Assembly (NCBI RefSeq): GCF_022984075.1 | Contig: NZ_JALAAD010000001.1 | Span: 1,406,455-1,470,454, forward strand | Source of the DNA: Synechococcus sp. C9 | GTDB lineage: Bacteria > Cyanobacteriota > Cyanobacteriia > Gloeomargaritales > Gloeomargaritaceae | DNA length: 64,000 bases | Reading direction: 5' to 3' | Made by a program: the position numbers and the translations under genes | Notes under the pieces: generated by a model | Told to the model about the DNA's origin: nothing | Databases searched by the model: none | What the model saw: only the letters and a program-made list of their open reading frames with translations | Shown here: one piece after another, positions 6,131 through 8,901 of the stretch | How positions within the stretch are numbered: the stretch's first letter is position 1 | Layout of the letters: the number at the start of each line of letters is the position of its first letter

Positions 6131-6475
6131 TTGATCTTTTACAGTCATTTCGGTTTAGAATGCGACACTAACTTGTGTAATAATTACGAATGACTTCGGT
6201 GGTGCCAGGGGGAGCGTACATCCTCAATTTTTTCAATTTTTTTAATGCGCTAAAGTCATGCTCAATATCATTGAGGTCTGGGGAATAAGTTGGTAAAAAT
6301 AATACGATATGCCCCGCCGCTTCCACTAATTCTCGAATGCGTTTCTTACGATGAATCGGTGCATTGTCCAAAATTAACACCGATAGTCTCGTCAATGCTG
6401 GTAATAAATGCACCTCTAACCATCGCTCAAAAGTCACCGCATCTAAACTGCCGTCAAATAGCATGGGAGCAATTA

Positions 6476-7432
6476 TAGTCATTTCGGTTTAGAATGCGAC
6501 ACTAACTTGCGCAATAATTACGAATGACTTCATCAATGGTGGTACCAGGGGGAGCGTACATCCTCAATTTTTTTAATGCGCTAAAGTCATGCTCAATGTC
6601 ATTGAGGTCTGGGGAATAAGTTGGCAAAAATAATACGATATGCCCCGCCGCTTCCACTAATTCTCGAATGCGTTTCTTACGATGAATCGGTGCGTTGTCC
6701 AAAATTAACACCGATAGTCTCGTCAATGCTGGTAATAAATGCACCTCTAACCATCGCTCAAAAGTCACCGCATCTAAACTGCCGTCAAATAGCATGGGAG
6801 CAATTAAATCCTTGCTATGTTTGCGCCGACCCGCTACGAGATTCTCTCGTTTATACCGCCGTCCCTGACGCTCTCCATAAATCTTTTTTCCCCGTTTAGC
6901 CCAACCATAAATCAGACTGACGAACCTCTCAAAGCCCGTCTCATCAATAAATAGCAGACTTTCTATCCCATACTTCTTGATTAATTCTCTCAATGTCCGG
7001 TAGTGTAATATTCTATCGGAATGATTTCTTTCTCGATAGCGAAACTGTTTTTTTTCTCGTGATATTTAGCCGCTTCAATTGATAATATATTGAGCTTGGC
7101 ACTACCCCAAACTCTTGTGCTCTTTGCTGAAGAGTCTTATCGGGGTATTTCTCCACATCTTGATTCAGTCTGGCAATATCGATTTTCCTCTTCCTTCTCA
7201 CTACTCTCGTGCGCTCCAGATTGGGTCTGTCTAGCCACCGGTACACGGTTGCTCGGTTGATGCCGAAGATTCGCGCCGCTTTCGTGATACTATTCCCGTT
7301 CTCAATGAAACTTATCACCTTTTTCCGTAAATCCAGACTGTAACACATCCTGATTCTTCTCCTTAATTCCTACTTCTCTTCTATCTTACACCCTCTTCTC
7401 ATAAAATGTTGCATTTTTATTAAAAATGACTA
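6476..7432 (-). mobile_element. Inner IS630/ISY100-like element, 957 bases
   Basis: This copy sits inside the outer one. The flanking outer sequence reads GCAAT-TA before it and TA-AATCC after it; joined, this restores the intact GCAATTAAATCC seen in the inner copy itself. The exact target is therefore TA, duplicated at 6474-6475 and 7433-7434. The ends are perfect 9-base inverted repeats, TAGTCATTT. It holds one transposase reading frame interrupted in a run of eight A residues (coding strand). Confidence 0.92.
6502..7348 (-). pseudogene. IS630/ISY100-like transposase, frameshifted
   Basis: Starts MCYSLDLRKKV with a helix-turn-helix domain (SITKAARIFGINRATVYRWL, about residues 18-37). The first frame ends at 7013 after 111 residues. 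The second frame holds the DDE catalytic domain: LLFIDETGF (first Asp), LILDNAPIH (second Asp) and YSPDLNDIEHDF (acidic third residue). At the junction this copy has eight A residues where the outer copy has seven. With seven the product would be a continuous 281 residues, the size I recall for ISY100-type transposases. It is either a dead copy or one that relies on slippage at the A-run. Confidence 0.85.
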
Positions 7433-8055
7433 TAAATCCTTGTTTGCGCCGAGCCGCTACGAGATTCTCTCGTTTATATCGCCGTCCCTGACGCTTTTCC
7501 CCGTTTAGCCCAACCATAAATCAGACTGACGAACCTCTCAAAGCCCGTCTCATCAATAAATAGCAGACTTTCTATCCCATACTTCTTAATTAATTCTCTC
7601 AATGTCCGATAGTGTAATTTTCTATCGGAATGATTTCTTTTTCGATACCGAAACTGTTTTTTTCTCGTGATATTTAACCGTTTCAATTGATAGTATATTG
7701 AGCTTGGCACCACCCCAAACTCTTGCGCTCTTTGCTGAAGAGTCTTATCGGGGTACTTCTCCACATCTTGATTCAGTCTGGTAATATCGATTTTCCTCTG
7801 CCTTCTCACTACTCTCGTGCGCTCCAGATTGGGTTTGTCTAGCCACCGGTACACGGTTGCTCGGTTGATGCCGAAGATTCGTGCCGCTTTGGTGATACTG
7901 TTGCCGTTCTCAATGAAACTTATCACCTTTTTCCGTAAATCCAGACTGTAACCCATTCTGATTCTTCTCCTCAATTCCTACTTGTCCTCTATCTTACACC
8001 CTCCTCTCATAAAATGTTGCATTTTTATTAAAAATGACTATATCAACCCAAGGGC

Positions 8056-8901
8056 TTAATCCGCCAGCACATCGGGGGCTAAGGTTCCCTGCGCCACTGC
8101 GGTCACCGGCCCGGTCATGGTGATGGCAAAATCCGGGGCAATCTGAATCGCCAATTCCCCCCCCGGCATCTCGACGGTAACTTCGGACGCACATAACCCC
8201 AACCGATGCACGACGGCGGCGGCGGCACTGCTACTGCTCCCGGAAGCCAGGGTGTAACCCGCCCCCCGTTCCCAAATCTCCAACCGCAGTCGTTCCGGGG
8301 ACAGCACCTGCACAAACTGCACATTGGTGCGCTGAGGGAAGAAGGGATGGGTTTCCAAGTCTGGTCCATAGGTCTGCGCCAAGTCCGGGGTCGTCTCCGG
8401 CACCACAATCACACAGTGGGGATTGCCAATGGTAGCCGCCGAGAAGGTAAACTCCCGCCCCTGCACCGCAATCGGCTCCTGGAGTACCTCCCGGTCTGCC
8501 CCGGTCACCGGAATCAACCGGCTCTGAAACGACACCCGCCCCATCGCCACCTGCACCTGCCGCCCGGACTGCTGTACCTGCGCCTGCACCCGCCCCCCCA
8601 GGGTTTGCACATAGAATGGTTGCTCGCCCACCTTGCCCTCGTCCCAGAGATAGCGGGCGAAAATCCGCAGACCATTGCCGCTTTTTTCCGCCTCCGAGCC
8701 GTCCGGGTTAAAAATCCGTAAGCCCAACTCTCCCCCCGGGGCGGGCAAAGGTCCCAGCAAAATCCCATCGCTCCCCACGCCAAAATGCCGGTGGCACAAC
8801 CGTTGGATCACCCCAGGATGCAGGGCAAACTCCAACCGCTCCGGGTCAAGCACCAGGTAATCATTCCCCAGGGCATGGTATTTCCAAAAAGGGGTCGCCA
8901 A
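8056..8901 (-). CDS. DapF-family epimerase-like protein, both catalytic Cys replaced by Ser
   Basis: 281 residues with the complete DapF fold signature: KYHALGNDYLVLD at the N-terminus, FNPDGSEAEKSGNG near residue 80, GNPHCV, and ERGAGYTLASGSSSSAAAA near 220. Canonical diaminopimelate epimerase inverts a carbon with two cysteines, one in CGNG and one in the A-C-G segment after ERGAG. Here both positions are serine. It may be a diverged member with another chemistry or substrate, a natural Ser variant, or inactive. Nothing else looks degraded. The ATG abuts the stop of the upstream PRC-barrel gene with no gap, so the two are probably co-translated. An IS lies 15 bases downstream. Confidence 0.85.
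   Translation of the reverse strand: MATPFWKYHALGNDYLVLDPERLEFALHPGVIQRLCHRHFGVGSDGILLGPLPAPGGELGLRIFNPDGSEAEKSGNGLRIFARYLWDEGKVGEQPFYVQTLGGRVQAQVQQSGRQVQVAMGRVSFQSRLIPVTGADREVLQEPIAVQGREFTFSAATIGNPHCVIVVPETTPDLAQTYGPDLETHPFFPQRTNVQFVQVLSPERLRLEIWERGAGYTLASGSSSSAAAAVVHRLGLCASEVTVEMPGGELAIQIAPDFAITMTGPVTAVAQGTLAPDVLAD

Follow-up and report, generated by a model that had tools for sequence, protein, structure and literature searches.

The locus and its gene neighborhood

The window, i.e. the whole stretch of 64,000 nucleotides of the cyanobacterium Synechococcus sp. C9 that was analysed, contains a gene for a DapF (diaminopimelate epimerase)-family protein with serines in place of both catalytic cysteines (Table 1). 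DapF inverts a single carbon of diaminopimelate (DAP), a step on the way to lysine and the cell wall. It is encoded on the minus strand, a point on which the sequence-only reading was silent, and its TTG start codon directly follows the stop codon of an upstream ORF. The region directly downstream of dapF (6168-7974) is occupied by fragmented, near-duplicate transposase-like ORFs, by eye of the IS630 type. A conserved lysine-gene operon around the Gloeomargarita dapF was rejected, its neighbors being the upstream 295-aa ORF and the IS fragments.

Table 1. Coordinates in the window of the Ser/Ser DapF-family gene, its key codons and the adjoining ORF
Feature	Position	Strand	Remarks
Ser/Ser DapF-family gene	8056..8901	minus	Starts with TTG at 8901 and encodes 281 aa; the only DapF of the genome
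Ser74 codon AGC	8680..8682	minus	Equivalent to Cys75 (catalytic) of Anabaena DapF; model helix 75-87 follows directly
Ser220 codon TCC	8242..8244	minus	Equivalent to Cys224 (catalytic) of Anabaena DapF; model helix 221-233 follows directly
Lys73 codon	8683..8685	minus	Always Lys in the Ser branch; 95% of the aligned Cys-type proteins have Met here
Ser223 codon	8233..8235	minus	Always Ser in the Ser branch and always Gly in the Cys type (Anabaena Gly227, amide near the second thiolate)
Upstream ORF, 295 aa	8902..9789	minus	Stop abuts the dapF start; same layout in congener locus L037

Family assignment and predicted fold

The protein matches the NCBIfam DapF profile TIGR00652 over residues 5-274 with 233.8 bits (cut-off 114.65), i.e. 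at full length as a canonical DapF does, and scores 194.8 bits with the Pfam profile PF01678. The latter was the only family recovered in a Pfam scan of the protein, which gave no membership in the proline racemase superfamily by sequence. Alignment with solved DapFs places its KSGNG motif on xCGNG and its TLASGSSSS motif on TLACGTGAC, with Ser74 and Ser220 falling at both catalytic cysteine positions. The AF2 model (pLDDT 94.3) shows the two-domain DapF fold, with the two serines where helices 2 (75-87) and 4 (221-233) begin, and its best PDB neighbor is itself a DapF (8qzy; VIA-align Z 37.2, rmsd 1.8 A over 273 residues). The initial observation that both catalytic cysteines are replaced by serine in an otherwise intact signature is confirmed. 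The protein is not a canonical DapF by strict membership, because the cysteine pair is absent; on the sequence evidence, the best reading is nonetheless that it works like one.

Extent, phylogeny and selection of the Ser/Ser branch

The suspicion that such proteins form a subgroup found in other genomes was correct: among 198 aligned DapFs, 107 are Ser/Ser and 91 Cys/Cys, and mixed Ser/Cys intermediates are entirely absent (0/198). In a scan of species genomes, all 80 of the nearest loci were Ser/Ser, with the near-invariant motifs PDGSEAEKSGNGLR and EIWERGAGYTLASGSSSSAAAA. Their record titles span Cyanobacteriota, Verrucomicrobiota, Desulfobacterales/Deltaproteobacteria, Planctomycetota, Chloroflexi, KSB1 and one Gammaproteobacterium; many are metagenome-assembled genomes, and individual titles may be wrong. 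One contig titled Akkermansia muciniphila (L075), for instance, has a locus layout nearly identical to that of L066, titled Pedosphaera, and is probably misassigned. Across these phyla the Ser branch retains about 60% identity, with nearly invariant active-site motifs. We found no report of such a branch in the literature searched.

In a tree from a short search without bootstrap, the Ser/Ser set forms one side of a single branch with an SH-aLRT support of 100; an artefact of the motif itself was rejected, as the support remains 100 once the motif columns are removed. Within this branch the Gloeomargarita sequences sit apart from those of Nostocales, the latter being close to a Verrucomicrobiota group, and this separation suggests, at the level of sequence relationships, that the two cyanobacterial lineages acquired the Ser type separately. 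The Ser74 codons of 106 relatives are of both kinds (AGY in 73, TCN in 33), and these two codon sets are more than one step apart, while dN/dS within the genus is 0.10-0.16. Judged by these comparisons, the Ser/Ser pair is strictly conserved and the gene is under purifying selection. Plain serine codons of both kinds, the uniformity of the nearest loci and the low dN/dS together exclude a sequencing error, recoding or a chance change.

General avoidance of cysteine was likewise rejected: the Ser branch keeps Cys36 and Cys163 without exception. This weighs against protection from oxidation as the reason for the swap, as does the occurrence of some carriers in anaerobic groups (Desulfobacteraceae). 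In its favor, the DapF of Corynebacterium glutamicum is redox-inactivated through a disulphide between its catalytic cysteines (PMC5296763), which a Ser/Ser enzyme could not form. Such a motive, which would be compatible with the function proposed below, we consider unlikely.

Copy number and pathway context

A Pfam search of the source genome (a Gloeomargarita-type cyanobacterium; 2.96 Mb in 4 contigs, 99.98% complete) recovered a single DapF gene over the cut-off; a second dapF was rejected, since PF01678 at E-values up to 1 gave only sub-cut-off matches of 12.3 and 11.6 bits. The same holds throughout the genus, with one DapF per genome in the source and all six congeners (7/7; 229-248 bits). 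The residues were read as Ser/Ser in the source genome, in four congeners (G001, G003, G004 and G005) and in the Gloeomargarita-type records L035-L037, whereas congener G006 was assigned by score only. Among named relatives, a Gloeomargaritales isolate comes closest, with 95% identity. In contrast, the sister genus has a canonical DapF (311 bits) with the residues Cys/Cys (L247). Among the matches listed for 291 sampled Cyanobacteriota genomes, a clear Ser-branch match was seen in two Gloeomargarita genomes and one other. Several nearly complete genomes of the phylum are without any DapF match (G048, and G159, G200, G205, G230, G310 and G374 of genus g114).

The remaining pathway genes of the source genome point to a need for the canonical reaction. 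It encodes a LysA over the cut-off, a MurE with the DNPR motif and an LL-DAP aminotransferase (617 bits, cut-off 507) of another type than that of the sister genus, and none of the 20 genomes searched has a DAP dehydrogenase match over the cut-off, by which a bypass through that enzyme was rejected. LysA is the meso-DAP decarboxylase, so that an LL-to-meso epimerase is needed. A lysine-type peptidoglycan was also rejected, as the DNPR motif of MurE is of the meso-DAP type, although sequence alone is no proof of specificity. Thus, the combination of LysA, a meso-DAP-type MurE and an LL-DAP aminotransferase with no DAP dehydrogenase requires the LL-to-meso step, and the sole DapF-family gene of the genome is found alongside lysA, murE and the aminotransferase. 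The genus (G000-G006, compared with G007; L211) also lacks the plant-type DapL of the sister genus, having the other LL-DAP aminotransferase type instead; two successive steps of the pathway hence appear to have been swapped in it.

Elsewhere, the Ser-type gene occurs within lysine operons, the genes being identified by homology. In one genome, titled candidate division KSB1 (L101/L212), the order is lysC-dapB-dapA-dapF(Ser)-dapL-lysA, with no other dapF present; here lysC, dapB, dapA, dapF and dapL were named by NCBIfam over the curated cut-off, while lysA scored 245.5 bits, below its cut-off of 297.9. Five Verrucomicrobiota-type loci share the order dapF(Ser)-dapA-dapB-folK, and dapL lies downstream of dapF(Ser) in two further loci. 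Overall, lysine/DAP gene linkage is seen in 10 of 99 Ser-type stretches, some of them from one genome, the rest being unlinked.

These observations bear directly on the sequence-only reading, which took the loss of both catalytic cysteines to mean that the reaction may differ or be lost, and the protein to be probably a specialised paralog, should a second dapF exist. A second dapF exists neither in the source genome nor in the genus, and the low dN/dS and the conservation of the family and its active-site motifs across phyla are not those of a decaying gene; we regard a specialised paralog, or a decayed enzyme that has lost the DAP reaction, as extremely improbable. That reading had itself named, as speaking against a lost or altered reaction, a gene that is the only dapF of its genome and essential for DAP: the first half of this is what we found.

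Replacement of the Cys type in other lineages

The Ser type also stands in for the Cys type in other lineages. It is the only type in 51 of 61 Opitutaceae-type genomes; seven have a low-identity DapF without the Ser type (reading Cys/Cys in all seven), none both, and three no match; as these genomes are related to one another, the counts are given without a p-value. Similarly, 16 of 96 Verrucomicrobiota genomes carry the Ser type, none of the 16 with a second DapF, while all 29 of the DapFs that were read among the other 72 genomes are Cys/Cys. By this sequence-based count, the Ser type exchanges one-for-one with the Cys type in Opitutaceae. One Opitutaceae-type genome (G496; L266, L267) has two Ser/Ser dapF copies. 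Another member of this family, the single-contig genome G488, has a Ser/Ser protein as its sole DapF, and by inference corresponds to Opitutus terrae PB90-1, which thus appears to have a Ser-type DapF only. DAP has been detected in this strain by GC/MS, for which no separation of meso- from LL-DAP is reported (PMC5303756).

On the other hand, both types are present together in Nostocales and several Desulfobacteria, where the Ser form is a second copy that may have a specialised role. In ten Nostocales loci (within L046-L070, e.g. L056:742-2343) the Ser-type dapF has on its upstream side a gene that by eye resembles isopropylmalate/citramalate synthase.

This coexistence, needless for a purely redundant enzyme, counts against an epimerase and for a different reaction, with DAP or a similar compound as substrate and meso-DAP coming from a non-homologous epimerase. 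So does the behavior of engineered relatives with little activity: Cys-to-Ser changes greatly reduce the turnover of a histidine racemase (PMC11602996), and Cys-to-Ala changes nearly abolish the activity of the C. glutamicum DapF (PMC5296763); these mutants are without the companion residues of the Ser branch. Against a different reaction, the Ser-type gene takes the operon position of dapF, exchanges one-for-one with the Cys type, and has been left as the sole type across a whole genus, such that an extra epimerase would be required in every Ser-only lineage. We therefore hold a different reaction to be improbable.

The proposal that we prefer is that this cyanobacterium converts LL-DAP to meso-DAP with the product of this gene, a functional epimerase from a distinct Ser/Ser DapF branch that displaced the Cys/Cys enzyme in the genus; the persistence of the Cys type in the sister genus, while the genus itself has Ser only, counts for this. 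From the sole copy, the branch, the gene context, the retained binding residues and the predicted fold we infer the reaction itself, and with these as its basis we consider this identification quite probable. The earlier expectation of a changed or lost reaction finds no support in the sole dapF, the complete lysine/DAP operon elsewhere and the exchange in Opitutaceae.

Active site and a proposed mechanism

DapF is the textbook case of a cysteine thiolate that takes a proton from an unactivated alpha carbon, and its cysteine pair is treated as indispensable. The pKa of that carbon is about 29 (PMC12039745). In the Anabaena enzyme, Asn66, Asn164, Asn197, Glu215 and Arg216 bind the distal amino acid of DAP, and Gly76, Asn77, Gly225 and Thr226 the reacting carboxylate; the thiols lie where helices 2 and 4 begin, near the amides of Gly76 and Gly227 (PMC12039745). 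All the DAP-binding positions (N13, N66, N164, N197, E215, R216, G76, N77, G225 and T226) are kept in our protein, Thr226 as Ser222, which retains the hydroxyl; the other exception at the site in the Ser branch is Gly227, replaced by Ser223. Conserved, branch-specific residues near the site include Tyr15, Lys73, Ile80, Gln195, Tyr216 and Ser223, of which Ile80 replaces an invariant Cys of the Cys type.

By analogy, the distal end of DAP would be held by Asn65, Asn160, Asn193, Glu211 and Arg212 as in DapF, while the N-termini of two helices, at 75-76 and 221-222, would bind the reacting carboxylate. The proton would then be transferred between Ser74 and Ser220, at the helix starts in the usual place of the thiols, with the branch-specific neighbors Ser223, three residues after Ser220, and Lys73, just before Ser74, potentially assisting. 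The least certain part of this scheme is that the serine oxygens themselves serve as the bases, to which we give an even chance. Serine as a proton-transfer residue has, by analogy, a precedent in the same fold, namely Ser93/Cys236 in a hydroxyproline epimerase and Ser90/Thr256 in a dehydratase (PMC4113996); these have one serine rather than two, which counts against the epimerase reading, and no precedent for two catalytic serines was found in the literature searched.

Alternatively, the protein could be a DAP epimerase whose bases are not the serines but Lys73, Tyr15 or a prosthetic group formed from Ala219-Ser220-Gly221. Ala-Ser-Gly is the triplet from which the MIO group of ammonia lyases arises. 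Its presence here, and the invariance of Lys73, Tyr15, Ser223 and Gln195 in the Ser branch only, would fit such a chemistry; the new lysine beside Ser74 stands out, as the 4 A around the catalytic sulphurs of canonical DapF are free of basic residues (PMC12039745). However, in every aligned Cys-type protein, too, the second catalytic residue stands between Ala and Gly, so that the triplet arises from the Cys-to-Ser change alone; Lys73 probably points away from the site, because Glu72 and Ser74 should face it; and the residue at positions 74 and 220 is invariably Ser, not merely non-Cys. We see another base as possible though rather unlikely, and, being a variant of the last step of the scheme above, it does not compete with the identification as an epimerase.

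Implications and comparison with known systems

A large natural branch without either cysteine, and apparently functional, would make the real contribution of the thiol experimentally addressable. At balanced chances of being right or wrong, it would amount to a naturally evolved thiol-free, cofactor-free amino-acid epimerase, relaying the alpha proton from one serine hydroxyl to the other in the central metabolism of whole bacterial families. In practical terms, thiol-directed DapF inhibitors, e.g. aziridine forms of DAP that alkylate the cysteines, may fail on Ser/Ser organisms, and such dapF genes would be misjudged by annotation rules that look for the cysteines.

Of the known systems, the closest is DapF itself (TIGR00652; PDB 9mro of Anabaena, 8qzy of P. 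aeruginosa and 4ijz of E. coli), which shares the full-length fold, the DAP-binding residues and the lysine/DAP gene context, at 29-39% identity to the solved enzymes in structural alignment; it differs in being Cys/Cys rather than Ser/Ser, with Lys73, Ile80, Ser223, Tyr15 and Gln195 peculiar to the Ser branch. The O-ureidoserine racemase (7vdy) and the histidine racemases CntK/HisR have the same fold and are likewise cofactor-independent, but act on other substrates, HisR with a Cys pair (PMC11602996). The hydroxyproline enzymes of the proline racemase superfamily, 4-hydroxyproline 2-epimerases and 3-hydroxyproline dehydratases with Ser (PMC4113996), also have a serine at a catalytic position of this fold, but only one (Ser/Cys or Ser/Thr), act on hydroxyproline substrates, and show 12-17% identity in structural alignment. 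Their Ser90 is positioned by a residue three further on, Asn93, the same spacing as between Ser220 and Ser223 here, and by this analogy Ser220 may be positioned by Ser223. Taken together, as far as sequences indicate, the Ser/Ser DapF probably does the standard job of DapF in a non-standard way.
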